The notes under the pieces are model-generated. The model ran no database searches and was not told the origin of the DNA. It was given only the letters and a program-made list of their open reading frames with translations. A stretch of 64,000 nt of DNA, from the NCBI GenBank assembly GCA_027972325.1, contig JAPMOS010000009.1, positions 785,008 to 849,007 on the forward strand, in the 5' to 3' direction. The position numbers were made by a program, and so were the translations under genes. The DNA comes from Paratrimastix pyriformis (Eukaryota > Preaxostyla > Paratrimastigidae). This document shows positions 2,813-64,000 of this stretch, in pieces. Each line of letters opens with the position of its first letter. Position 1 is the stretch's first letter.

Positions 2813-4654
2813 ATGGCGGAGCAGCCACGTTGGTACTTCAAAGACGATAATGGCTCATTCCAACCTTATTCGCCTTTTATGCACATTGCAATCGATCAAG
2901 CATATCAGACGAACCCTCAGTTGCCAGTCATCATCGCGGATTATAAGATTACTTTCCTTCTGGTCTACTTTCCGGATCTCTTTCGCGTTTAACTCTCTGC
3001 CTTGATAGAATGAGGAGGGAACTCAAACCGATCTCCTGACGAACAAAGATCGTGACATTTGTCGCTGGTTGCCCTCCACCCAACCGACCCTCCCTTCCCC
3101 GGATCCTCTTCCGAATTCTCTTCTACAACTGCGATCGCAACCGAAATCACCTCCGCATCCACACCCACATGCCCTATCTTTTTCGGCGTGTGTGCCACTG
3201 AGGCAACCATCGGTGGCACCCCCCCTCTGCCCGGTTTGCGGAGTTAACCCCTGCGCCGTGGAGGGTGAGCGGCTGCACGGATTTTGCTCGAGGGCATGCG
3301 CCGACGAAGGAATTGCCATGAGAATTCGACCCGCCCAATGGGCGACCACCGGCGTCCCGGGCCCCTCTTTGCCCAACCCACGCGAGCGGGTCTGGGAAGG
3401 GCAGGCCGATGGGACCCAGAACTGGGCGACCCTCAATCTGGTGGACGCTCAAACGGTTGAATATCTCAGCAGAGCCGTTGGAAACACGCTTCCCTCAGCG
3501 ACCTATGACCCGACATCATCTCGGTTCGTGGCACCGGGTTTTTCAGGCATTGTTCGTTCCGTGCAATGGCAATTCTTCCATTCTTCTGCGGAGACGTGGA
3601 AGGTCTGCCGCGGAAACCCCGACCCGTTCGCCGAATCCCCTCTCTTGTGCAGACCTACCCTGCCCAGACCGCGGTTCTCCTGGAGCGAAATCATCTGGCC
3701 GGCCACCAGGGCCCGGTTGCCGTTGCCAGAGTGGCCATCTTTCATCTCGATGAGATGACTGCGGAGAGCACCGAATATGGCACGTTCCCCATCCGACGGG
3801 TGGCCAGCGACGAGGCTCCGCCCCAGGAGGAACTCAACCTTGTCATTTGTCGCGTTCGCAGGTGCCGGTCCATGTTTCCCTGGGCCATACTTCACCTGTC
3901 ATTTGCGGCTGGCCTTCAGAAACCCTTCTCCGTGACGTCGCTCCAACCTGAGGACGGCGGCGAGGGGGATGCGGTCTGGGAATACTTCACCAACTGCTGG
4001 CGCAAACGAGGTGTTCCCGAGCCGCGACCCTGCTTCATCGCCAAGGTGTGGAACCGCGCATTGGCCACGCGCTATGCCAAATACCTCCAAACCATCCCCC
4101 TGACTGAACGACGCGAGGAGTTCTTCTTCCACGGGACCACCTCCGCCTGCGGCAGCCAGTGGCGGGCCCAGAAGCACGGCTGCGGCAAGACGGACGGCAC
4201 CTGTGCCGTGTGCAGCATCCTCCACGGTGGCTTCGTCAAACAGGCCATTCGCGATCCCGGCCAGTCCTTCCAGCGCTTCGGGGCGGGCTTCTACTTTGGG
4301 CTCGAGTCCACCAAGTCCAACGACTACACCGAACCTCCATCTGTGGCTGGCCGGGTTGCTTCACAGGACCCCAACCTGAGCCGGGTCATCCTGATCTGCC
4401 GCTGTGTCGTGGGCCGGATCTACGAGTCCAGCCAGGAAGACCCACAGAAGACCCGCCAATGGACGCGGGCCCCTCAGGGGTTCGACTCTGTCTTGGGCGT
4501 GCCACTACCCCTCAACGTGCCCAAGCCGGGCCTGAAGTGGCCCGAGCACATCATCTACAGCGAGGATGCCATCCTGCCCATGTACGCCGTGGTGTACCAC
4601 GCGCCCGCCCTGCCCCCGGGGGCCAGCGCCCCTTGCGGGTGCCAGGGCGTCTAA
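2813..4654 (+). CDS. WWE - Cys module - WWE - PARP catalytic protein
   Basis: Three exons, 2813-2962, 3009-3602 and 3653-4654, join in phase 0 to 581 residues. The start ATG opens directly into a WWE domain (residues 1-75: WYFKDDNGSFQPYS, then YKITF). A Cys module follows at about 123-148 (CPVCGVNPC, HGFCSRACA). A second WWE-like domain (about 234-300, VQWQFFHSSAETWK to FPIRRV) precedes the PARP domain (about 335-581). HGT lies near residue 407 and FGAGFYFGLESTKSNDY near 457. WWE domains bind iso-ADP-ribose in poly-ADP-ribose or stabilise PARP and ubiquitin enzymes. The protein probably transfers ADP-ribose from NAD to a target; mono- or poly-activity cannot be told. The third catalytic residue could not be placed. 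The catalytic domain is nearly the same as in the genes at 8165-11246 and 25374-26458. Confidence 0.85.
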
Positions 4655-4858: not shown

Positions 4859-5596
4859 CTAAGGCTCGTCGAAGCATATGTTCCGCAGAGGCCCCCGAAG
4901 CGGATCCGGAAGATCGAGCATCGGGATGCCGCCATAACCCCCGGGCTGGGCGACGGCACCTGGTACCCGAGCATAGGCCATTGGTGCCGGGGCATAGGCC
5001 CCCGGGCCCGAAGCAAAAGCTAGGGCCGGAGCCGGGGCAGGAGCAGCAGGTGGATGTTGCCTCAGGTGCGTCCTGAGATCCATCAGCATTTGTCCAAGTT
5101 TGTTCTGTCCACTACCGTCGCCTCCATCACCCCAAAAATTGTCCTTGACGGTGTGTTCAACCAGGCGCCGGTTGCCTGTTTCCAGCAAACATCTCAGGGC
5201 GTGAGGGTTCTGCGTGAACTTGAAGTAGAGTGCATCCCACATGATGGCCAAGTTCTTATCACGCCAGTCCTGGATGAACATTGAATGGAGACGAGATGAG
5301 TTGTGAACAGGAACCAAACCTTTCGAACATCGGCAGGCCGTCTCCGTGTGAAATCGAATGCATCCCGAGCGAATGGGAGATTTCGAACCTCTTCTTGGAG
5401 TGCGGGGCTCTCGAACTTATGTGCCTGACCATCGGAAAGAGATCCAGAGCAAACTCAATGAAACGCCACCGACCTGAAAGTAATGTTCGCTGGTCTTCCA
5501 TTGCCGACGGGTGGTGTCAATGAAAGGCGCGCGATCGTAAAAGTTGGTAAATTCGTAAAATGGCCTGTCCTTGTCGTAAAAGAGCACCGGTTCCAT
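4859..5596 (-). CDS. NADAR-domain N-glycosidase-like protein
   Basis: Exons 5596-5474, 5424-5320 and 5269-4859 give 212 residues, all joins phase 0. The start is the only in-frame ATG (MEPVLFYDKDRPF); an upstream non-coding exon cannot be excluded. The NADAR (YbiA-like) signature is complete: YEFTNFYDRAPF, WKTSEHYFQAHKF, DWRDKN, LLETGNRRLVE, FWGDGGDGSGQNKLG. NADAR enzymes cleave N-glycosidic bonds (riboflavin precursors in bacteria), and some members are reported to release ADP-ribose from guanine bases. The Glu of SEHYFQ, thought essential, is present, so activity is likely. The last 60 residues are Pro/Ala-rich. The next gene on the same strand stops only 178 bp upstream of its ATG and has the same intron positions, so the two are tandem duplicates. 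Confidence 0.85.
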
Positions 5597-5774
5597 CGAT
5601 TCGTCGACTCGCCGCACCCAGAATCCTATTTTCTTGCCCGGGGATCTGTTCCTTGTGTCATTATTGACAGGCGGAGTCCACCCCCCTCCCCCCTCCCCCC
5701 CGAGGCGAACAAGGGACTCGGGCCAGGGTGGCCAGGGTCGCAATCTCAGCTGTGTAGGTGATCTTACAGAAAGT

Positions 5775-7944
5775 TCAGGGCATTACTGGGGTCGGCTGTG
5801 CATCTCGGATGGCCATGAGCATCTTGCCGAGGAGATTTCCAATTGACCAAGTCGAGGGTTTCTGCGTCTCGAAAAGGATGCGCCGGGGTTGAGTCGACGC
5901 AAGTATCGCGGCGATCTCGGGGTTCTGCTGGAACTTCATTCGAAGGGCATCGGTCATAACTTGTTCGGCCCGACCAAGGAAAAGCTAAAGGGAAGGAGAG
6001 AAGGGGGTGAGGAAGAGTCGTGATCCTCACCACCACAACCACCCCACGCACGCACACATCCACCACCCTGTGCTGACCGGGTCTTGCTCGGTCAAGTGTT
6101 GCCTGCTGAGGGTATATACCCGACCGGGGTCAGGCTCCGTGCGAATCTGCTCGAGCAGACGGGGCTCCCGGCGGAACTTGCAGGCGTGGAAGTAGTGATC
6201 GACCGTCGGCCAACGCATCCCCCCGGCGTCCGTGAACGGGGACACAGAATTATTGAGGAGACACGTGTACTGTGGCGCCGGGCGGCCTGCGATGGTGGCC
6301 GTCGAGGGGGTCAGAACCAGCGGTGGTTCAGGGGGAGTGCGGTTGGGGGGGTACTGCCCCCCGGGTGGTGAGACACGCGGTTGGACGGGATTTCTCCAGG
6401 ACAACGGGGACGGGGTGGAGTATGCTGAAAGAAGCGAGGGAGATGTTGAGATTGATGGGGGATATCGGGAGAGCTGCGTGCTCACGGCCGCACCCAGGCC
6501 GCCGACACCACCACCGGGGGGAGATCGACGAGCGTCAATCACCACCCGAGGAGCAAAACTCGCCGATCCGAGGGGGGATGGCTGTTGCAGGTGGGATGGC
6601 TGTGATGAAAAGGGTTGCACGGAGGCCGGCTGCTGTCCAAGGTAGGTCGACCGGGATGGGAGTGAGGATGGGGATGGGGCCGGCGGGGATGCCTGCGAAC
6701 TCGTGCTGCGGGAATAGTAGTGTGCCGGCAGAGGGGGCGGCGGTGGGAATACCGGGGGGTACGATTGCGAGGGCGCCAGGGCGTATGATGGGGGCGGGGG
6801 CGGGGGCGGGGGCTGGGAAGGTGGGGGCGGAGCGGGGTATGCCGGGGGCGGAGGCGGATCGCCCCAGGTTGAGGATCGGGGTGCCAAGTCTGACCGCGAT
6901 CGGGCGACGGAGACGGGCGGGCGGTAGGATTGGCGCGAGGTGGTCGTGAACTGGTCGGAATCAGTCGATGTGCCGATCCGCGGGGCCCGCTGGGCGGAGG
7001 AGGGTCTGTGAGCCGCCGAGGCGGCTGCGGCGGGATCTGTTGAGCGGCGCACTTTCTGGACGCTGGAGGGACGCGGGGCGGGGATCCGGTTGGAGGAGGA
7101 TAGTGCCGGGGGAGAGAGGACGGAGGCGGAGGCGGAGGCGAGGAGGGCGGGTCCCTGGGCGCTAAGTTCGGCACGGCGGGCCATCAACAACTGGCCCAAC
7201 ATGTTGCGGCCACTGAGGTGTGTGTGTGTGGGGGGGGGGGAGGGGGGAGGAGGGGGGGGGGGGAGGGGAGGGAGGTGGGGGATGGGGCCGAAACGGAGAA
7301 CCACAAAAAGAAGGATATGCGGGAGAAAGTGTTCGAGGTGAAAGGGTCGAAGAGCGGGCAATGCGACACTTCCGGGGGGAGGCAGACCGCAAACCGGCTC
7401 CCCCGTCGCCTCCATCACCCCAGAACTCGTCGTTGATTGTATGTTCCACCAGCAACGCGTCGCCAGTCTCAAGCAATCGACGGACGAGTCCCGGATTTTG
7501 CTGGGAGAACTTCAGACGGAGCGCATCAACCATGGCCTGGATGTTGCAGTGGCGCCAGTCCTAATGAACGTGGGGTGATGAACCCCAGGGAAAGAGAGGC
7601 TGTATCAGACCGGGCGCACGGAGGCAGCATGATCTCTTGCGAATTGGAAGGCTTCACGAGGTGTGGACAATTGACGGATAGCCTCTTGCAACCGGGGATC
7701 TGTAAATTTTTGAGCCTGCACCAGAAATTGCTGGTTGAGGATTAAAGAGGGAAAAGGTGACCTGAAAATATTGCTCCGATGTTCTCCACGATCGATTCAA
7801 CTGATCGACGAAGGGTGCCCGATCATAGAAATTCGTGAATTCGTAGTATGGTCGGTCACGCTCGTAGAATAAAATCGGCGAGTTTTGAGAGTGACCCAGG
7901 GGCCCCGCTGGATCCCTCCAAGACAACGACCGACCATCGCCCAT
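5775..7944 (-). CDS. Tandem NADAR-domain protein with long Pro-rich linker
   Basis: Exons 7944-7762, 7715-7611, 7560-7388, 7212-6078 and 5984-5775 give 601 residues. The start ATG (MGDGRSLSW) is the only in-frame one after an upstream stop. The first NADAR domain (about 23-170) is complete: YEFTNFYDRAPF, WRTSEQYFQ, LLETGDALLVE, FWGDGGDG, NMLGQLLMARR. A Pro/Ser-rich linker of about 300 residues follows. The second domain (about 470-600) is degenerate. SEHYFQ is replaced by TVDHYFH, with Asp for the usual Glu, and the FWG.G.DG loop by FETQKPSTWSIGN. It may bind rather than cleave. The first two introns sit at the same codons as in the single-domain neighbour. The substrate is unknown; adjacency to PARP genes suggests an ADP-ribose-linked one. 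Confidence 0.8.
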
Positions 7945-8164: not shown

Positions 8165-11100
8165 TTAGCACCCACACGGGGCGGTTTTCCCCGGGGGCAG
8201 GGCGGGCGAGTGGTACACCACGGCGTACATGGGCAGGATGGCGTCCTCGTTGTAGATGATATACTCAGGCCAGTTCAGGCTCGAGCTGGGCGCTTTCTTC
8301 TTCTCCAGTCCATACACCGAGTCGTACCCCGCGGGGGCCTGGGTCCACTGAGTGGTCGTCTGGTCGTCATGGTCGGCCTCGTAGGCAAGGCCCACGACAC
8401 AGCGGCAGATCAGGATGACCCGGCTCAGGGTGGGATCACTGGAGGCACCGCGGCTGGTGCCCCGGGGTGGTTCGGTGTAGTCGTGGGACTTGGTGGACTC
8501 GAGCCCAAAGTAGAAGCCGGTTCCGAAGCGCTGCGTGAACTGGCTGGGATTGCGGATGGTCCGTTTGATGAAACCCCCATGAAGGATGCTGCACATGGCG
8601 CATCCGCCTTGTTGACCACAGCCGCGCTTCTGGGCCCGCCACCGGCTGCCGCAGGCGGAGGTGGTCCCGTGGAAGAAGAACTCCTCGCGCCGGTTGGCGG
8701 GCGGCTGGATGGTCTGACGATACCGGTCATATCGTGTGGCCAGTGTCTGGTTCCACACCTTGGCGATGAAGCAGGGGCGCGGCTGGGCAACGCCCGGCTT
8801 GCGCCAGCTGTCGGTGAAGAAGCCCCAGACGGCATCGCCCTCGCCGCCATCCCCGGGTTGGAGGGGCGTGACGACGAAGGGCTGCTGCATGATGTGCGGC
8901 GGGAAGGCCGGGTTGGTTTTGGCCCAGGGGAAGGGCGTGCGGGTGTGCTGAAGTGGCTTCCCGAAGAGGGCGGCCACGCCCGAGGGGGTCGACGCCACAG
9001 GCCCTTGCACCGGGTTTCCCAAAATCTTGGTCAGGGCTGTCGCAGGCGCAGTCGTGGGCACGATCCCCCCGCCTGCCTTTGCTGCGTTCCGACAGGTCAA
9101 CCTGGACGGGGGCTCCGTACACCCTTTCAGCAAAAACAAATGTTCCAGACCCGCAGTACCCGTGGGTCTGGCCGGTGGTGGGGTCGACATGACACGGTCG
9201 GACGTGGCACTGGGGGCACAGCGGGAGCTGAGAAGCGAGTGGGGCGGGAAATGTCGCTGGGGCGGACATCCCCAGGGCCTGGCAGGCCTGCAGGACGTCA
9301 GCCTGAGATGGAGGAGGAGGGAAAGCCAGGCCGCGTGCCCCGAACTTCTTTGCACAACCTGTGCCGCAGAAGGGGTGGATCCGAGAGGCATCGACATGGC
9401 AGGGGCGTGTGTGGCATTCGGCGCAGAGCCCAGGCAAGTGCGCGATGGCCGGGGGTGCCGCCGTAGGGACGCGTGGACCCGGAGTTGAGCGAGCGACTCT
9501 TGCCCCGCTGGCCAGGTCTGCTTGGAGGGCCTGAATGTCACTCAGGGCTGGGCTGGGGGGCGAGGGCAGGCCGCGCTTCATGTACTGCTTGGCACAGGTC
9601 TGGCCGCAGAAGGGGTGGATGCGTCCGGTCGTTTCGATGTTGCATTGGCGAGCGTGGCATTCGGCACAGAGGCCGGGGTGGGTGGAGGGGATGATGCGAG
9701 GAGGGGCCGGAGCCGGCTGGACTGGGGCTGGGGCTGGCTGGACTGGGGCTGGGGCTGGGACTGGAGCCGGCACAGGAGCAGGGGCAAGGGGGGCAACTGC
9801 AGCAGCATTCGCGGAAGCCTTGATGGCCCTGAGATGTGGTGGTCGTGGCGGCGCAGGTGTGAGGACATCAGGAGTGGTGAGAAGGTGAGGGTGAGTGAGA
9901 GGGGCGAATGGGTTGTGCAGACATGAGGCCGATGACCAAAGACCCTGGTGGCCAGCAGGGGATGGAGGAAAACGTCAGGATGAGAAGACGACACACCCAG
10001 AAAAGCGAGCGACCGACCAAGTTGATTCATCACGTCTGCGGAGGGTTCGGGAGAGGTCGACGGGGCAGGTGCCGGGGTGGTAGCGACGGCAACCGCCGGC
10101 GGGGATGATGCCGGGGTGGGGACGAGCACCCCAGTCTGACGCGATAGGCACTGTAAGCACGGGGAGAATGCCCCGGTACTGTCGACCGAGGCCCAGTTCT
10201 TGTGGCAGATCTGGCAGGGTGGTGCGGACTGGGGCGGTGGCGGCAGTGGCTGGAGTGGCGGCGGCTGTGGCAGTGACGGCTGTGGCGCGGGGGTGGCAGC
10301 AGGGGGAGACCGGTAGGACATCGGCAGGGGCGGCGGCGGCGCAATGAAGGAGGGACCCGAATATGGAGGGTGTTCAAATGAAGGTTCCGGGATGTCCATG
10401 GGCGAGTACTGGGGCGGGGCTCGGATGGGGGCGGGGGCGGGCTGCGGGGAACTGAGGCGATGGCTGTGGACCCGGGAAACCGGACTGATATGGGGGTGGC
10501 TGCGGATAGCAAGGCGGGGGGGGCGGAGAGTGGGACTGGCGTGATGGCTGTGGGCCCGGGAACCCGGGCTGGTACGGGGGTGGTTGGGGATAGCAGGGCG
10601 GGGGCGGAGAGTGGGACTGGCGGGGTGGCTGGGAGCCGGGGTAGGCAGCGGACTGGTATGGGGTGGCTGCGGATAGTCTGGGAAAGAAGGCGGGGGGGGA
10701 GAGAGGGATTGGCGTCGTTGCTGGGTGCAGGGATAAGTGGCCGGTGGAGGTGGAGGTGGAGGTGGAGGTGGAGGTGGAGGTGGAGGCGGAGGTGGAGGCG
10801 GATGTGAAGGCGAGGTCTGATACTCCATAGGAAATGTCGACTCTGGTGGTTCGTAACGAGGAGCGCACCGTGAGTCAGCCTCATCGTCCTCCGGAACATC
10901 ATCTTGATCATCCGCAGGAGGGTACTCCTGGGGCAGTGGAGACGTGTGCCGGTGGTTCCCAGGGAACGAGCCCCATTGCATTCCCCTCAATCTTCGCCCT
11001 CTTCCACCTCTCCGGCCTCTCCGCCGCTTCTGCTGCGGCGCGAGACCGGGTGGTGTTGGCGGTGGCGGTGGTGGGGCAAACGGAGGTGGGACTGGTGGAG

Positions 11101-16822: not shown

Positions 16823-19800
16823 ATGGTTGTTGTCATTGAGCCCCCCGATCCGTTCTTCAGTCTGATACTAGAGCCGGGAGCAACTGCCCGAGTCGGAGCT
16901 TTTGGAACCCGCTCGCCGTGCGTCTCAATTGTCGCCCCCTGCATATAGCGGTAGGTGCCAGGGTTAGGGCACAGGCAGGAATGGAGCCACAGCCAACTCC
17001 GCGTTGTTACACCATTGCTGACGTTGTTTCCCTGGTTCCACATCCGCGTGATGATGAGGAATCCTCGCAACAGTCGAACCCGGCGAAGAAGGTTAGCCGC
17101 CATTATTGATACCTATACCTATTTGATCTTTCTATTAAACGCCAGGTACCCTTCAACTCCGCGTTCTTTGAGACGATCCTAAAGGCTGTTGTTTATCCGC
17201 AGCCGCTTGACATTGAATTCGAAGGGAAAAACGCTTTCCTGACATTTGAATCGTCCGGCATTTGCGACGAGGCGTCGAGACGGTTCAACTCATGTTACCT
17301 TTTTGTACTTTCGGTCCGTTGTTTCGATGATATTGATTATTTTTTGACAAAATTTCACAATCTTTTCTGTCCAGACCAAACCCGGGACCAATGGAAGACA
17401 AATATTTCTCAAGGATGTCGTTTCTTTTGTTTTCGGATGGATTTTCGCCGACATCGGCGGAATCGTCAAAGCAACCGGCACGAGGGGTCACACCCGCAGT
17501 TACTTCGTCAAATTCCCCTCGAAACAAATCCGAGACGAAGTTCTTCGGAGGTCGAACCCATTCGAGTGCAACACCGCTCAGGACAAGGTCTGTCTCCACA
17601 CTCTCATGAGTCAGTCATTCCCAACTCGCACAGGAGGACACCATCTTTGTGCGCTCTTTGGGCGAGAATCCCCAAGATATCATCCATGCGATTCAGCGTT
17701 CGTTGCACGTCGCCCCCGTTGTCATTAAACGCGCCGACCCAAGACCCTCTCCGCCCCCTGGTTCACCAGCAACAGCAACCCCTCAACCGATGTTCCGGCA
17801 ACATAGGAATCCACCTCCCGAACGCCCGTTGTCTCCTCCCATGGCAACAGCCACATTCCCCCAGCGTGGCGCTGCGATGTCACCTCCACCTATCCCTCCG
17901 CCCCCGCCTGGTCATCGGTCTGCCTTATCCTTTGATTTTCGACATGTCTGACTCAGCTGCTTTCTCTCGATGGGTCCACAGCGATCCGATCGCCTCAAAA
18001 GAGGCGTTCCTGAAAGATTGCATCCGGAAGAACCCTTGTGTGGTGGTTCAGGGCTACCCCGGCTCCGGGAAGACGACCCAGCTGCCCCAGTACGCCGCCG
18101 AGGTGTTCCCCGACAGCACCGTGCTGGTGGCCCATCCCCTGGGGCCCTTCCACCACCACTTCGTCCACGATATCATCAAACAATCCCGAAGCCGGCACCC
18201 GGAGATGGCCCGCGACCCTGACGCGATCGGCTTCTATTCTCCGACCCATCCCAACTTCACCCGGATCATGTTCCTGACCCCGGCCGATCTGCTCCGCCGT
18301 GCCAAGGATGACCCGCTCCTGACAGGGGCCCCCAAAGCCGCTCTGGCGATGAACGAGGTCAGCGACGACGACGACGATGACGATGACGACGCAGAGTCCA
18401 GCGGAAGCGACGACACCGGCAGTAAGGCACGGAGCGTCGTCTCTGCCGTTTCCTCCACTCGGAGCCGGGGATCCCGTCCCGCCCGAATGCGCCGCCCTCC
18501 GCCACCCCTCCGGCCGGTTCGCGTGCTGATTGTGGACGATGCCCACCTGCTCACCGAGGACATCGACCTGGTGCTAGCCCTGGGCCGCCGCATCGCCAGC
18601 CAGCGGCCGGACTTCCGCATGGTGGTGGTGCTCCCTGAGCCCGCGCCCATGCCCAACACCAGCCCAATCACCCACTTCTTGGGGTGCACCACACCCCCGA
18701 TCTCGATCACGGGCCCCCACCCGCATCCCGAGGAGGTGTACATGTCGGACCCCAAAGGGTTCGCCTTCTCGGAGGCCTTCCTCCGCCGGGTGCTGCACCA
18801 GATGCTCAAGTCCACAACAGGCGATGCCCTGGTGTTCCTGCCTCGGTCTGTCAACCTTGTTCCCCCTGATGTGTCCACCCTCATTGCCTTCGTTGCGCTC
18901 CTTCGATCCCCGATCCACCCACCACCAGCGATTCGGACGCGGACCACCTGAAGCGCTTCCTGGACAACAAAGAGAGGGGCTTCTGCTTCCGCACCTTGAA
19001 CGACCGCACCCGATATGCGACGGGAGTCCGTCAGGTGCTCCTCTGCGGCCCCACGGCTGCCTCCACGAGGTGCCTGCGAAGGGTCGGGCTGGTCGTGGAC
19101 TGCGGATGCCGGCTGCTTCAGGTCCGTCCCGAGGGCTAGCCCTCCTTCTCTGGCAGAACCATCCTCATCCCCCCCCCCCCCCCCCCCCCCTCCAGCGCTT
19201 TGACCTGAAGACCAGGCACTCACGTCCCGAGTTTGTGCCCACCTCGGCCCAAGCTGCGAGGCTGCGGGGGATGTTGACGTCGACGCCCAAGGCCCGCGTT
19301 GTCCGGCTCTACGCACGATCATCCCCTCGGGTGCCCCTCGTCGATGAACCCGAGGTGGCGCTCTGCTCTCCATTCCGCTCGGTGATGCTCCACCGGCTGC
19401 TCGGACTCGAGTTCCTCATCCAGGTCGGGCCGCCCTCCTTTCCTCGTATGGGGTGATTTGGTTCTTCATGATCTGCATGAGAGTCAACTCTGCTTCTTCG
19501 CCCCTCGCGCGTTCCACCCCGTTTTCACCCCTTGCGCAGCCTCTCCCGGCGATCGGCCACCAGCTCACCACCTGGGGGTTCCTCGACGATACGGACAGCG
19601 CGGTGACCGAAACGGGGCAGCTCTTCCTCAAGATCAGCCTCTCGGCCAAGGCGGTGGCCTTCATGACCTACCTCTACACCCGCGTCTGCTCCGACCGCGC
19701 CACTTGCGCCCGCCTGGCTGCCCTGCTCGATGCGGGGCGGATCAACATCAAGAAGAGCGCCCAGGATTGGGACATCGCCTCCGCCCTGGCCCAGCGCAAG

Positions 19801-22800
19801 CGCCCTTTCAAGAGCGACCTCCTCTTCGACGACGCCGTCTACCAGGAGTGGCTGGCCACCCGGCGCCCGGGGCCCGATGGGAAGTGCATCTCCTGCGGGA
19901 AGGCCACCACTCATTCGCGCGGATGCCCCATCCTGGTCAGCGAACTGGGCCTCTCGGTGGAGGCCCTCCAGCGCATCCGCCTCAGCACCCGTCGGGCAGC
20001 GGAGGCCCTTCGGGCCCTGCCACCCGTCCAGGTCGATCGGGATCTGAACCAGGGCATCGCCGATGCCCTCTCGGCCACCCACCTCGGGGATATGGCCGAG
20101 CTGCTCGTGCCCGAGCTGCCCCACGAGGGCGCCCGCCTGCTCTTGGATGGTCGAGGTCTGGTACTCCCCACTCCCAGCCACCCGGTCGCCACCACCCACC
20201 CCCACGCCCGCTGACTTGCGACTCCTCCCTCTTTGGTTTTTGCCTCCCCGGCTGCGCAGAGGACAAGGCCAAGATCCACTCGGGCGCCTGCATGCTGCAG
20301 GTCCTGCCCCAGCCCGGCACCCCGATGTCCCGCTTCGTGGTGGCACTGGACTATCACAACAGCAAGGACGGCACGCTCAACATCACCCGGGTCCACCCAC
20401 TCCCGCCCGACTGCGTGCCCCCCGTGCGCGCGCGGACCACGCTCAACATGGTGGAGGTGATGCGCATCCCGAACGTGGGCGAGGCCTTCTACGGGCGCTT
20501 CATGAAGGCCTTCAATGACCGCAAGAGCAAGCTGACCCCCTTCCTGGTGGCCATCCGGGACGTGGGCAAGGCCGAGCTGCGCATCCTCGTCCCGCAGGCC
20601 GAGCGGGAGAGCGTCCTGGCCCTCCTGCAGCCAGTCGAGGCCGTGGTCCGGCACATGCACTCCCCGGACCGCCGGTTCTGCTTCGGGGTGGGCAACATCC
20701 AGCTGGACGTCAACGATGGCGCCGAGTCGCGCCTGATCACCACGGGCCACCAGTACCGCCTGCGGCTCCGTCCCCGGGCACCCTCCAACGGGGAGGAGGC
20801 CGCCGAAGATGACGCCGTCTCGACCCTGCTCCGCCAGACCAAGGACCAGCAGGCCATTTTCGCCCAGAGCGGTGATATCCTCATCCCCCAGAAGGACGCC
20901 CGCGAGCTCGGGATGTCCCTGCAGCGCGTCCCGCAGGCTCGGGTGGTCAACTCGGACCAGTGGGGTCGCCTGGTGGAGGTCGAGTGGTCCCTCGGCGACC
21001 CCAACTGCGAGCGGATCATCACGAGCCAGCTGACCGGCAACTTCCCCGACCTCCCGGAGCCACGGGCTCTGTTCAGCACCCCCCGGGGGGTCACCCCTCA
21101 GCGGATTCGCAACCAGTACACCTTCCCATCCGTCAGCAAGGCCGCCGAATTCATCGATTCGCTCGGCCGCATGTCTCTCCCGCCATCCGCCTCCCTTCAG
21201 CTGGTCGAGGGCCTGGCCGAGGTGTATGTTCACATCACTCCGCACGGGAACCTGGAGCGGACCGTCCAGCACCTTCGCGCCAAACGGCCGCGTTGCCAGG
21301 CCACAATAACCGCCTCCCCACCCAAGGTCACCTTCCGCGGCTCGCCCCAGGAATGTGCCCTGGCGGCCAAGGAGCTGGCGAGCGCCGTGGACCCCATTGA
21401 GATTCCCTTCCGGCCCGGCAATTCGAGTTTCTACAAAGAGCTGCGGCCCCAGGCCAGGCAGTGGGCCGTCGAGCTGGGGCTGGACCTCGAGGGGATCGAT
21501 GAGGACAGCACCTGGGTCTGCCACCCCCCCCCCCCCCCCCTCCTCCTTCTCGATTCACTCCATTCGCTCTGACTTCTCACTCCTTCCACGCACAGAGCGT
21601 CTACGGTTCCGGCGCCCAGCAAGGCGAGTTCATGAAGCGGATGGGTGACCTGTACCAGTCCTTCACGGACCGCAACCTCCTGGTGCCTCTGCTCCCCCGG
21701 CAGCAGGCCGTCCTTCGGGCCGACACGGGTCTGAATCGGTTCCGCAAGCTCCGGTCCGCCGTCGCCTCGCGCGGCTGCGTGATGGACATGATCGAGAACG
21801 GCGCCGCGGTGTCCATCGGCCACCCCACCGACCCGGCCGCGGTGAAGGAGGCCGAGAGGGCCCTCCTCGGCATTCTTCGGGAGCTGGGCGACTCCCAGGA
21901 GGTGCGTTCGCGCTGCGACTACTGCCATGGGAGATCGAACGCCCCCTCGCACTTCTTCTCGTCCTGCGGGCACCCCTACTGCGAGGCCTGCCTGAAGCAT
22001 GAGATGTGTGGTACGGTGCCCATCGTCTGCCCCACGTGCCGCACTCCAGTGGCCTGCGACGACTTGGTGGCCTCGCAAGCCTGGCAGGACCTGCTCAAGC
22101 GGCTACTGAAGGACCAACTGGCCAGTCTGTCTTGCTCTCCCTGGCCCGGGCCGGCAGACATAAGACAGGCACCCAGTTTTTGCATGTCATTGACACCTTC
22201 TCCCTGCATCCCTTTCTCCTTCCGACCGCGCCCGTCCAGAGTCGGCCTCGCTCCATTGCCGCTGCCCAAACTCGAACTGCGACGGGGTCGTCGCCAAGGC
22301 CAAAGGCTGGCACGAGTGCCCGTCTTGCCTGCTGCACGTCTGCGGCAAGTGCGGCGTGGTCGCGTCCTCCTCCCCCGTGGCCGACGCCCACAGGGGCCGC
22401 AGCTGTGCCGACTACCAGGCGTATCTCGACCGCCTCCAGGCCGAGGAATTCGAGCGGAAGCGGAAGGAGGATGAGGTGCGCAGGCAGGCCATGGCCCGAA
22501 TGGCCGAGGAGCAGCGCCGCCAGGAGGAGGAGCGTCAGCGCCGCGCGGCCGTGGAGAAGTTCAAGAGGGACTGCACGATGGTCCGCATACCACCACCATC
22601 ACCTCTCTCATCTCCCATCCCATCCCATCCCATCTCACCGCCCCCTTCCACCTTCATCCACCCTTCCCTAAACAGGCACGCAAACAGTTCTTCGATCGCT
22701 GCTTTGCCGAGGCCCAGAAGTGGGCCGGGGCCGAGTGGGAGCGCGACGTGCTGGGGCCCTACACCATCATGCCCAACCCGCATCTGAACAAGTTGTGCCC

Positions 22801-24292
22801 CGCCGCGGTGCGCTTCCTGCAGATGGCGGGCGGCGAGCTGGACGTGTCCAAGGGCTTCTTCGCCTGGCACGGCACCCCCGACGCGGCCGTGGGGCCCATC
22901 TGCTGGGATGGCTTCGACCCCAAACGGCGCGCGGGCCAAGTTCACGGCCCTGGCGAGTACTTCTCCATGAAGTCCACCGTCTCGAAATCGTATTGTCTGT
23001 CTCCCTCCTGAAGGTGGCTAACGGTGAGGGAGCCGAACTCTCTTCTCATTACCGCCTCGGCCACACCCCGTCCATGCACGCGCAGGCCGTGGTGGCTCGC
23101 ACTTTGTGATTACCTTCATCCTGAGCTGCTGCAGCCCCACGTTGGTTCCCGGATTCTGCCACGTGGTCCCCAACCCCGTCGACTGGTCGAAATCCTTCTG
23201 CCTGCCCGTCGCCATCGTCTCCACGGGTGGCGCCAAGCCCGCCTTGGCCGAGGGCGGGTACCTGCCCGCCTGTCCGCTGCCCAACCCCGACCCGGACCAC
23301 ATCAAAGAGACATTCGTAACCGACCAAGATCGTCTGCCCAGCCCACTCGCGGCCCCCGCGCCACTCCAGGCCGCACTCCAGGCTGCTGCACCCAGCCAGT
23401 GGATCGAGCTGCCCTCGGTGCCCTTCCAGTGGTTCTGGCGGGGCGACCGGTGCCCATGGGAGGTCCGCCCCCCGATCTCTCTATGCCATTCGTTTTGACC
23501 AGACCCCTCGTCTTTTGTCTTTTTGTATTTTTCGCCCCCCTGCTCTCCTTCCTTGCCATTCGTTTTGACTGACCCCTCGCCCTTCGTATTTTCCCGGCTG
23601 CTTTCTCTGCACAGCCCTACCGGGACGAGCACAACTGCCGCATCGAACAGGCCTACGAGCTCTACTCCTGGCATGGGGGCCCCTCCGAGGGCGACATCGG
23701 CGACGTGAGCCGCCTGTGCGACGACGTCATGACTACATACTTCGTCCGTGATCCCGCCCTTGGGCCCTTTGGGTTGCCTTTTTGGCTGGTCCCTCGACTC
23801 CTGATTGACTCCATTCCCCAAATCCTTCTCTCCCGGAAAGGTCGACTTCAAGGAGATGGCGCAGCACCGGAAACTGGAAGCCGAGCGCTGGCGCACTCGG
23901 GCGGTCAAACGCGAGCCCAAGCCGGAGACGCCGTCCTCTGCGGTGCAGTGGCAGTACCTCGACGCGGCGGGCCAGTGGCAGCCCATGCAGAGTGCCGACC
24001 AGTTCTTCGTCAGCCAGGCCTTTGATGCCTACACCAAGGGGACCGGCCCCGGGTCCGGCATCCAGGTCAGGCCGCCCTCCCCTTCCTCCTCCTTCTCTTT
24101 GTCCCTGTTTCACCCGGGCGCGCACAAACCAATTCTGATCATCTCTCCGACCCTCGCCCTCCCACCCCCCAGATGCGCGTCCCCGGGCGGCCCGAAGTGT
24201 ACGAACTCGACCTGAGCCGCTGCGTGCAGCGCAACCTGGCCTCAAACACCTCGCGGCCCATCCGTCGGGTGGGCTGCGGCATCGCTGGGTAA
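16823..24292 (+). CDS. RRM-like / DEAH-helicase-like / RING-IBR-like / PARP / WWE-WWE fusion protein
   Basis: Seventeen exons, 16823-16917, 16962-17091, 17146-17304, 17375-17587, 17634-17917, 17982-18845, 18929-19121, 19196-19423, 19540-20155, 20260-21515, 21596-22124, 22240-22580, 22676-22994, 23086-23462, 23615-23743, 23841-24065 and 24173-24292, keep one frame for 2025 residues. Residues 55-200 contain RRM-like strands (NAFLTFESSGICDEA, SYFVKF). The helicase part (about 295-720) has GYPGSGKTTQ at 318 and VDDAH at 478, but a degenerate motif V (LLCGPTAASTRCL) and no QRxGRxGR in motif VI, so it is probably not an active helicase. A RING-like CDYC...CGHPYC..C...CPTC (1453-1503) and IBR-like CRCPNSNC...CPSC..HVCGKC (1528 on) follow, then a charged helix. 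The PARP domain has WHGT at 1700 and HGPGEYF near 1730. Two WWE domains (about 1858-2020) end it. Plant DEAH11/12 proteins share helicase plus RBR; I know of none with PARP and WWE. Confidence 0.8.
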
Positions 24293-25373
24293 CGGAGGGG
24301 GGGCGTCCGAGTCACGATCGCTGCTCGAACCCCGAGGAGTGTGGTGGTGGTATGTAATTCTCGAGATTTTTCTCCACTTGCGTCTCTCAAAAAAAGACTG
24401 AGCCCGCGGACGACTGAGCAGCATCGACGTTGTTGCGTACTACCAGGCTGTGATGACGACAACGGCTCGGAAGCAGTCGCGCGTTGCGCGCGGATGCCGA
24501 GGCCGATGGAACGACAATGGCGAAGGTTCCTCCGGAATCCCGGACATCTGTCCTCGCCGGTGGGTTGGTCCACACCTGGGAGAAGAGGGCCGCCCGGGGG
24601 GGAGGAGGCCCAGCAGAATTCATCAAGCGGTGCCACCCGTGCGAAGTCAACCATCATCTTGCGAGCGGGCGACGGCGGGTCATGTTCGCCGGCTGGGCTG
24701 TGGCTGGGGCGGGGAGGGTGGAGGGGCCTTAGGTTGGTCATCGCTTTTCCTCTGCTTGACCCCCGTGGTCCACCGACTTGGCAGGTGTGTGGTTCAATCC
24801 GGGATCAACTGAACTTCTTCGATCGGATGATCCCGTCCTCCCGACCGCCTCAGTCGCCTGGCCCATTCGGCTCCCCGACGCCCCCGCTTGGGAGCTTCTC
24901 GCCCCGCTCCAGTTTCCTTGAGATAACTTGGCGCGGCCCCACTGATCATATGGTCTGGGCTCTTGGCCCCATCTCCACATGCATTTTGCACTCTCCCTTT
25001 CTTCTCGAAGAATCTCAAGAAATGCGGCGTCGTTGGACGATCGCTCGAGTGAGAGATCTCACGTTTTATGGTTTTGGGGCGTCTCTCCGAGGCTGCTCTA
25101 ACACGAGGCCACCGAGGCCAAACTGTCGGTTTTGGGTCATTCACCGGGTTTTGGACTCCGTCGAGACTAGCCTCCTCGCTTGTCACTCCCCTCTGCTTGA
25201 AGAATCGATTTGTCATGTCATCTTGTCTGCCCATTCAATTTGTTTGGTCATTCGTTACTCATAGGCTGTCTTTTCGGGGCGGCATCATTCTGGCATTCTT
25301 TTACCTCAGGCACTCCCACATCAGGTCAGTTTATTGGAGTTTATTTTCTTCTTTACACTTAAACCATTCTCAG
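24293..25373. other. Unassigned stretch upstream of a PARP gene
   Basis: No gene can be supported. One plus-strand frame beginning at an ATG near 24518 (MAKVPPESRTS) is open for about 70 codons with no family match, and could be a 5' exon of the next gene or a remnant. Several GT...AG possibilities exist near 25322-25373. Confidence 0.3.
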
Positions 25374-26458
25374 GTGATTTTCTCGTTGCGGATCCGGCGG
25401 CGTTGGTTGGCGGGGCCCTTCCGTGCCCCCCCGGGGTGACCGTCCCCACACCGGCTCCAACTCCATCAGCAGCAATTCCCCTGGCGCAGACCCCGCCGGC
25501 ACCCTCCGAACCCGCCTCAAAGGATGCAGAAGTTGAAAAAGCCGGTCTGCTCTTGCCTCCTCGACTCTGCCTCGTTCAGACGTTGCCGTCGTCTTCTTTT
25601 CTTCACCATCCGCCAGCCCCTTCGAGTTTGATCACCGCCCTCTTCGAGGCGCCGCTTCAGCACACCCGCACGCCCTTCCCCTGGGCGACAGCCCACCCGG
25701 CCTTCCCGCCGCACATCATGCAGCAGCCCTTCGTCGTCACGCCCCTCCAACCCGGGGATGGTGGCGAGGGGGATGCGGTCTGGGGCTTCTTCACCGCCAG
25801 CTGGCGCAGGCCGGGCGTCCCCCAGCCGCGCCCCTGCTTCATCGCCAAGGTGTGGAACCAGACAGTGGCCGCGCGCTATGCCACCTACCGCCAGACCATC
25901 CAGCCGCCAGCCAACCGGCGCGAGGAATTCCTCTTCCACGGGACCACCTCCGCCTGCGGCAGCCAGTGGCGGGCCCAGGGCACCGGCTGCGGCCAGACGG
26001 ACGGCACCTGCGCGGCGTGCGGCATCCTCCATGGGGGTTTCATCAAACGGACCGTCCGCAATCCAGGCCAGTTCACGCAGCGCTTCGGGACCGGCCTCTA
26101 CTTTGGGCTCGAGTCCACCAAGACCAACGACTACACCGAACCACCCCGGGCCACCAGCCGCGGTGCCTCCAGTGATCCCACCCTGAGCCGGGTCATCCTG
26201 ATCTGCCGCTGTGTCGTGGGCCACGCCTTCGAGGCCGACCATGACGACCATGCGACCAGCCAGTGGACCCAGGCCCCCGCGGGGTACGACTCGGTGTACG
26301 GGATGTCCAAGGGCCCCAAAGCGCCCAACTCGAGCCTGAACTGGGCCGAGTTCGCCATCTACAGCGAGGATGCCATCCTGCCCATGTACGCCGTGGTGTA
26401 CCACGCGCCCGCCCTGCCCCCGGGGGCCAGCGCCCCGTGTGGATGTCAGGGCGTATAA
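25374..26458 (+). CDS. PARP catalytic-domain protein, 5' end unresolved
   Basis: Open from an acceptor-like TTCTCAG (ending 25373) to TAA at 26456-26458, about 360 residues. No ATG begins the frame, so an upstream exon is missing or the gene is a truncated copy. A Pro/Ala-rich stretch of about 60 residues precedes the PARP domain: FLFHGTTSACGSQW, CAACGILHGGF, FGTGLYFGLESTKTNDYTE, YSEDAILPMYAVVYH. No WWE domain and no Cys module were found upstream. The last 75 coding bases before ...GCGCCCC match the gene ending at 4654 base for base, while the middle is closer to the gene at 8165-11246. This suggests recent duplication or gene conversion. Confidence 0.7.

Positions 26459-57824: not shown

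Positions 57825-64000
<6,176 letters not shown>

Follow-up and report, generated by a model that had tools for sequence, protein, structure and literature searches.

In the animal cases known to us, ubiquitin and ADP-ribose are coupled between separate proteins (tankyrase with RNF146, PARP7 with DTX2), and we know of no PARP domain or helicase region in the Deltex ligases (DTX1/2/4) or RNF146 themselves. A different association is seen in plant DEAH11/12 ('Plant I/Helicase' RBR), which by description combine a DEAH/RHA helicase, a long middle part, RING1 and IBR. The helicase subfamily of RBR ligases is reported from both unikonts and bikonts (PMC2904391). DTX1/2/4 and RNF146 join RING and WWE domains on one chain and tie the reading of ADP-ribose to ubiquitin transfer, with the WWE of RNF146 activating its RING (PMC7615817), and PARP7-borne ADP-ribose is described as being ubiquitylated by DTX2 (PMC12583694). 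Among the clade 3 PARPs with WWE domains (PARP7, PARP11, PARP12 and PARP13/ZAP), two WWE domains are described for PARP7, PARP12 and PARP13, and an RNA-recognizing part on the PARP chain for PARP12/13 (PMC10450202). Precedents for a ubiquitin-system domain joined to a PARP are Dictyostelium DDB0232928 (U-box, Macro, PARP) and the clade 6A PARPs with UBCc, which use U-box or UBCc in place of RING-IBR and for which the part of the source drawn on here mentions no helicase region or WWE (PMC2964712).

The locus considered here lies in a window of 64,000 nucleotides from Paratrimastix pyriformis (contig JAPMOS010000009.1). The initial annotation had read a single frame crossing 16 introns and linking a series of domains, and the spliced model agrees: positions 16823-24292 of the plus strand yield 17 exons with 16 GT-AG introns and 2025 amino acids without internal stops, the stop codon ending at 24292. 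A first splice model, built with a donor score that preferred A or G to C at +3, gave the same exons over 17982-24292 save for three introns with shifted ends. The donor sites of the gene match the genome's own donor pattern (15/18 in a recount leaving out the C485 gene, 14/15, which was guided by its own protein and hence is not independent). An ATG in exon 2 could be an alternative translation start. The features, in window coordinates, are:

16823..24292, plus strand: whole gene model (spliced model and paralogs)
16823..16921, plus strand: exon 1, tentative N-terminus of 33 aa (open frame alone, without paralog support)
17146..17726, plus strand: N-terminal block, aa 73-230, of no known family (found at 3/4 paralogs tested)
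17913..19417, plus strand: degenerate DEAH/RHA-like helicase core, aa 293-720 (HrpA and ddx-15 matches)
18052..18078, plus strand: Walker A, GYPGSGKTT, aa 318-326 (sequence)
18535..18546, plus strand: Walker B, DDAH, aa 479-482 (sequence)
20155..21898, plus strand: middle region, aa 928-1447 (found at 4/4 paralogs)
21914..22042, plus strand: RING, aa 1453-1495, eight zinc ligands with C-x2-C at the end, then R1495 (Pfam, profiles)
22254..22412, plus strand: IBR, aa 1528-1580 (Pfam, profiles)
22413..22580, plus strand: charged linker, probably a coiled coil (by eye), aa 1581-1636, one Cys and no His
22676..23231, plus strand: PARP catalytic domain, aa 1637-1791, two exons, with H1701, Y1731 and, at the third triad place, C1767 (Pfam, profile)
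23406..23897, plus strand: WWE 1, aa 1850-1930 (Pfam, profile)
23937..24268, plus strand: WWE 2, aa 1944-2018 (Pfam, profile)

Inspection of the genome reveals four paralogous loci (C469, C25, C4 and C467) that are laid out like this gene, from the helicase region through the middle region and RING-IBR to PARP; the helicase-to-PARP order is thus present at five loci, four of which also carry the WWE domains. The exception, C467, additionally has HKT in place of HGT and lacks the first RING cysteine in its model, while C37 retains only the IBR end, linker, PARP and WWEs. When the blocks of the gene were aligned with splicing to the four paralogous loci, each against eight shuffled queries, the helicase, middle, RING-IBR and PARP blocks outscored 8/8 shuffles throughout; the WWE block did so at C469, C25 and C4, and at C467 was not above chance (77 versus 79 for shuffled queries). 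Some of these alignments (helicase at C469 and C25, middle region at C467) reach out to distant, spurious exons, and their outer ends therefore carry little meaning. Pattern scans outside this genome, of viral contigs with the RING-IBR, PARP and middle-region alignments and of genome contigs with the PARP alignment, recovered no relative; the collections scanned comprise viruses and prokaryotes, and the scans are therefore silent on other eukaryotes. Searches of the open-licence literature brought up no description of the architecture, which is no proof of its absence.

The helicase core is recognizable among PDB sequences by its matches to HrpA (2.7e-8) and C. elegans ddx-15 (3.9e-8), and the Pfam DEAD model reaches just 0.28 in this gene and 3.5e-7 in the best paralog. 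Walker A and B are kept here; relative to HrpA, VLPEP stands for the SAT of motif III, motif V contains GPTAAST and motif VI contains ARLRGML. Motifs III, V and VI (QRxGRxGR) are lost in all four members readable there (this gene, C469, C4 and C467; C25, with motifs V and VI unreadable, is outside this count), and Walker A, kept in three of the five members, is lost in C25 and C467. Because of these losses the region is probably not an unwinding enzyme, and the candidate of an active helicase was discarded on the same motifs. The DEAH helicase claimed initially is thus present as a DEAH/RHA-type region, but one without motifs III, V and VI. The RNA binding proposed for the N-terminus found no support: neither the N-terminal block nor the middle region has a significant profile match in Pfam or PDB, including to any RNA-binding family. 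AlphaFold2 runs on single exons gave poor models (mean pLDDT 43.9 for exon 10 and 53.0 for exon 11).

In its tightest cut-out the PARP domain scores 4.7e-6 and 26.7 bits with Pfam, exactly the cut-off, longer pieces scoring lower (23.4 and 25.1 bits); it is short, about 155 amino acids, and the match covers part of the model. Relatives score 29.5 (C469), 26.4 (C4), 24.1 (C37) and 17.2 bits (C25), and C467 gives no Pfam PARP match at E up to 1. A profile of the family matches PARP12 at 9.3e-7, the closest solved domains being those of PARP12 and PARP13/ZAP, and the domain is PARP12-like and clade 3-like by profile similarity. The histidine and tyrosine of the triad are invariant in all six PARP domains; the third residue, placed by visual alignment of the final strand with PARP12, is cysteine in five and isoleucine in C25. 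As in clade 3 PARPs, a catalytic glutamate is absent, here from 6/6 domains by that same alignment. It follows that mono-ADP-ribosylation is the most that could be expected, poly-ADP-ribosylation being rejected on the missing glutamate, and the C or I at the third place, positioned by eye, leaves the predicted transfer activity uncertain. The PARP domain named at first is thus recovered with its H and Y, but lacks the glutamate. The two WWE domains are confirmed, both lying above the Pfam cut-off of 21.1 bits (1.4e-9 and 1.2e-8; 38.7 and 35.6 bits); their profile matches DTX1 at 3.1e-12 and is closest to DTX1, TRIP12, HUWE1 and PARP11. No DTC domain, as in Deltex, appears in the Pfam scan of this protein. 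Compared with clade 3 PARPs, the WWE pair follows the PARP domain, a helicase-like region replaces the CCCH fingers, and RING and IBR are present.

The zinc ligands of RING and IBR are complete in this gene, those of the RING at canonical spacing (C1453, C1456, C1470, H1472, C1475, C1478, C1491, C1494). The linchpin place of a RING is described as directly after the last CXXC (PMC7615817); R1495 stands there, as does arginine in C469 and C467, with serine in C25 and glutamine in C4. Pfam scores are modest (zf-RING_5 0.0019, below cut-off; IBR 1.4e-4, 22.3 bits versus a cut-off of 24.3); the IBR model matches four of the five members, exceeding the cut-off in the RING-to-PARP pieces of C4 and C467 and giving no match in that of C469. 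A family RING-IBR profile matches the HOIP IBR (5.5e-7) and the RNF4 RING (1.7e-6), and the RING profile finds the canonical RINGs of RNF4, BRCA1 and TRIM25. The charged linker sits where an RBR ligase would carry RING2: neither IBR_1 nor IBR_2 of Pfam matches at E up to 1 in the RING-to-PARP pieces of 5/5 members, and the stretch separating C1578, the final cysteine of the IBR, from H1701 of the PARP domain contains three cysteines (1634, 1645, 1677) and no CxxC. A point against E2 activation by the present RING-IBR is that a RING1-IBR piece of HHARI is reported to have given no gain in E2 reactivity (PMC3305615).

Taken together, the reading we regard as most likely, at somewhat short of even odds, is an RNA-tethered platform that would couple, in cis, the transfer of single ADP-ribose units with that of ubiquitin. 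Its helicase-like and middle parts would bind RNA or RNA-protein particles but not unwind them; the PARP domain would mono-ADP-ribosylate targets close by or the protein itself; the two WWE domains would bind ADP-ribosylated partners; and the RING would act as an ordinary E2-activating RING, not by RBR-type transthiolation, to ubiquitylate the same targets, much as if a tankyrase/RNF146 or PARP7/DTX2 pair were placed inside one RNA-tethered chain. As initially suggested, such a protein may serve in RNA surveillance or antiviral sensing, with putative double marking by ubiquitin and ADP-ribose.

The main rival, to which we give a distinctly smaller though real chance, is a pseudoenzyme scaffold in which helicase, ligase and ADP-ribosyltransferase are all dead and which binds RNA, ADP-ribose and partners. 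It would then resemble PARP13/ZAP, which the PARP profile also matches and which is not known to be catalytically active, and plant RCD1. RCD1 is reported to be inactive (PMC2964712). This rival accords with the helicase motifs lost in 4/4 readable members, Walker A lost in 2/5, the missing RING2 and catalytic glutamate, and the C467 PARP with its HKT, unseen by Pfam. However, H and Y are invariant in 6/6 PARP domains, all zinc ligands of RING and IBR are present in this gene, and the linchpin arginine and Walker A are each kept in 3/5 members.

A fuller version of the preferred platform appears doubtful: an RNA-sensing dual writer, which would mono-ADP-ribosylate a bound target (possibly RNA) and ubiquitylate it, with its own WWE pair reading the ADP-ribose in cis, a PARP-WWE-WWE cassette having replaced the RING2 of a helicase-RBR protein, and with a local PARP/NADAR cluster. 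NADAR is an ADP-ribose-removing family. Three further PARP open reading frames and NADAR matches lie within a 24-kb stretch that includes the gene, which also favours the preferred platform in its plainer form. Of the genome's seven NADAR matches, four are at window 5060-7869, and the contigs that carry the remaining family loci have none. NADARs are described as reversing guanosine ADP-ribosylation of RNA (PMC11833690), which, together with the helicase-like region on the same chain and the nearby NADARs, could point to bound RNA as the acceptor of an RNA-directed ADP-ribosyltransferase whose mark the neighbours remove. This we consider improbable: the contigs of the other loci carry no NADAR, those present could serve the products of the adjoining PARPs, and RNA binding by the protein is itself putative.

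That the protein is an ordinary helicase-RBR ligase like DEAH11/12, extended by a PARP at its C-terminus, is very improbable. The control comes from C321 in the same genome, a locus of one-strand open frames with GSGKST, DECH, SAT and GRAGR motifs, followed after some 6 kb by RING1-IBR-RING2 in one frame (IBR 2.4e-10, IBR_1 4.2e-7); C321 was read as separate open frames, and that its helicase and RBR parts form one gene is therefore an inference. The PARP profile has no significant match there, whereas the RING-IBR profile matches its RING1-IBR collinearly (i-Evalue 5e-13). The helicase region, RING1 and IBR are related to their C321 counterparts, but IBR_1/IBR_2 match 0/5 members versus the match in C321, and the reading as an RBR ligase was rejected on that ground. 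The likeness to DEAH11/12 seen at first accordingly holds for RING1-IBR, but not for RING2 or helicase motifs III, V and VI, and the plant proteins differ also in that here PARP and two WWE domains follow the IBR.

The helicase-to-WWE frame is very probably one gene, because four other loci keep the helicase-to-PARP order. Of two candidate breaks raised earlier, 17918-17981 is bridged, since C467, C25 and C4 also have the N-terminal block 5' of their helicase region (0/40 shuffles reach each score; at C469 16/40 do, and it was not found), and 22580-22676 is a 95-base intron, PARP following IBR in 4/4 paralogs. A two-gene reading was rejected on the paralog order and the C469 exon. That adjoining genes were read together, or the assembly is at fault, is likewise very improbable, as the domain order recurs at four further loci, a single C469 exon (104907-106754) spans middle region and RING in one unbroken match and donor sites follow the genome's pattern, even though G+C is lower upstream of about 18000 (0.57 versus 0.66) and the C25 model requires introns as long as 1036 bases to join its matching downstream exons.

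With regard to origin, the family likely arose when a PARP-WWE-WWE end took the place of the RING2 end in a helicase-RBR gene, with duplication afterwards; the helicase and RING-IBR parts carry this descent, since the N-terminal and middle profiles find nothing significant at C321. If the RNA-tethered platform is the true reading, it would suggest that ubiquitin and ADP-ribose became coupled more than once, here in a lineage far from animals, and an RNA-helicase-like chain bearing RING, PARP and ADP-ribose-reading domains would offer a single-protein system for testing that coupling. Further, the loss of RING2 beside a canonical-looking RING would be a natural experiment on mechanism change in RBR ligases.

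The final model of the fusion gene (16823-24292, forward strand) comprises 17 exons separated by 16 GT-AG introns and encodes 2025 residues; the initial annotation had likewise carried a single frame across 16 introns, ending at the same residue. A first exon search, with a donor score favoring A or G at position +3, yielded the exons of the interval 17982-24292, and GTC started 12 of the 13 introns of that first model. In the final model three introns were corrected using the reading frame and domain sequence, and 5' exons were added, with exon 1 tentatively placed from its open frame alone. The 5' splice sites of this gene family are shifted, with GTCYG in place of GTRAG. At five paralogous loci, where a donor-neutral model was used and introns flanked by homology on both sides were counted, C occupies +3 in 15 of 18 introns, and in 29 of 33 once the fusion gene, whose model was guided by its own protein, is included; the baseline is 34% of all GTs in six loci. 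The loci relevant to this shift are:

16922 to 24066 (window): interval holding the donors examined
L040-L044 (1501-1656) and L045-L047 (genome assembly G000): U1 genes

The 5' end of the U1 snRNA is normally almost invariant. All eight U1 matches, which come from the best 41 of 992 candidates, start with ATACAGACCTTG in place of the ATACTTACCTG of the Rfam consensus; each covers the whole Rfam model, with scores (50.8-60.2) below the gathering score of 69.5. The exact string ATACTTACCTGRC is absent from the whole assembly (495 contigs, 56,060,509 bases). The 16 donors of the fusion gene match the complement of the altered U1 end at a mean of 6.75 of 11 places, as against 5.4 for the complement of the usual end, while other GTs reach 4.0 and 3.9, respectively; when 16 GTs were drawn at random 20,000 times, no set attained 6.75. 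Since the final donors were partly picked by their GTC pattern, the paralog count is a fairer measure than this score. The altered U1 5' end would explain the C at +3 and, in the one gene family examined, the U1 end and the donor sites look to have co-evolved. The oxymonad Streblomastix is described as retaining A, U and G at +3 to +5 (PMC1501061), and a report of such a shift was found neither in one literature search nor in passages of PMC10703272.

A genome search with the middle-to-PARP query revealed, among the matches listed, exon series like that of the fusion gene on contigs C469, C25, C4 and C467, and the PARP part alone on C37; the family may have further members beyond these. The paralog models are 25-59% identical to the fusion protein over aligned blocks from the N-terminus to PARP. 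In spliced alignments controlled with shuffled queries, the helicase, middle, RING-IBR and PARP blocks each outscored all eight shuffles at every one of the four paralogs, bearing out the earlier linking of these domains in one protein. The WWE block beat the shuffles at three of the four, doing no better than them at C467. At C467, C25 and C4 the N-terminal block (residues 73-230) outscored all 40 of its shuffles; at C469 it is unsupported, with 16 of 40 shuffles reaching its score. Further, a single uninterrupted frame at C469 holds both the middle region and the RING. The shorter relative is:

C37, 79701-81228 (L020, L033): truncated family member comprising the end of the IBR, the linker, PARP and a pair of WWE domains

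Here, of the blocks tested, just the PARP and WWEs exceed the shuffled controls and the helicase, middle and RING-IBR blocks fail to do so; this member is either a shorter gene or a remnant.

The best solved relatives of the helicase part are HrpA and DHX15-type helicases. Pfam DEAD gives 0.28 in the fusion protein versus 3.5e-7 in the best paralog. The fusion protein retains Walker A and Walker B; SAT and motifs V and VI are lost in it and in C469, C4 and C467, and Walker A is lost in C25 and C467. The simplest reading is that this part would serve as a platform without unwinding. The six PARP domains share the H and Y of the triad, with C at the third place in five and I in C25 (alignment to PARP12, last strand placed by eye), a pattern compatible with mono-ADP-ribosyltransferases or with inactive relatives. 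Pfam PARP scores are 29.5 bits for C469, at or slightly below cut-off for the fusion gene and C4, and lower for C37 and C25; Pfam reports no PARP in C467. The WWEs lie far over their cut-off, with those of DTX1, TRIP12, HUWE1 and PARP11 closest.

The fusion gene shares one 24-kb stretch with a cluster of ADP-ribosylation genes, made up of four NADAR matches (of the genome's seven) at 5060-7869 and the following:

2795-2992: WWE exon
3509-4654, forward strand: PARP ORF (Pfam 20.3 bits, below cut-off)
8165-9541, reverse strand: PARP ORF
25265-26458, forward strand: PARP ORF

The three PARP ORFs, found on both strands, are 67-83% identical in the pairs compared, and contig C135 bears another copy. 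The NADAR match at 7408-7869 has two in-frame stops, reflecting either introns or decay. NADARs are described as removing ADP-ribose from guanosine in RNA (PMC11833690) and also in DNA (PMC11125620). Elsewhere in the window, whose G+C ranges from 0.47 to 0.68 in 2-kb steps, many closely spaced GTGAGT at 61360-62269 (reverse strand) probably form a local repeat array.

Ubiquitin-system domains combined with PARP are known, as U-box-Macro-PARP in Dictyostelium and UBCc in clade 6A (PMC2964712), as are helicase-RBRs (PMC2904391) and RNA-binding PARPs bearing WWE (PMC10450202). In the literature searched, which was mainly non-subscription, no description was found of a ubiquitin-system domain, helicase-RBR parts, PARP and WWE on one chain. 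RING1, IBR and RING2 together define the RBR ligases, with the ubiquitin-accepting cysteine located in RING2 (PMC3305615). A five-member profile of the family matches the HOIP IBR and the RINGs of RNF4, BRCA1 and TRIM25, and RING2 models match none of the five members; in the fusion protein the IBR is followed by a charged linker and then PARP. The same genome supplies a control:

C321, 107396-116099 (L034), minus strand: apparently a helicase-RBR ligase gene of the conventional kind, read from unspliced frames

This locus has intact DEAH-type motifs and, about 6 kb further, RING1-IBR-RING2 within one frame. The family RING1-IBR profile aligns to it along almost its full length and the helicase profile partially; the middle, N-terminal and PARP profiles find no match there. 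A CPxC followed by R closes the RING in three of five members, the residue after the CPxC being the linchpin place (PMC7615817); the C321 RING1 has longer spacing and a T at that place. The proposed likeness to DEAH11/12-type proteins, judged against C321, holds for RING1-IBR and part of the helicase, and not for RING2, which is missing in all five members. With these matches at C321 and the RING2 absent, the fusion family appears to be related to the helicase-RBRs, with its RING2 end exchanged.
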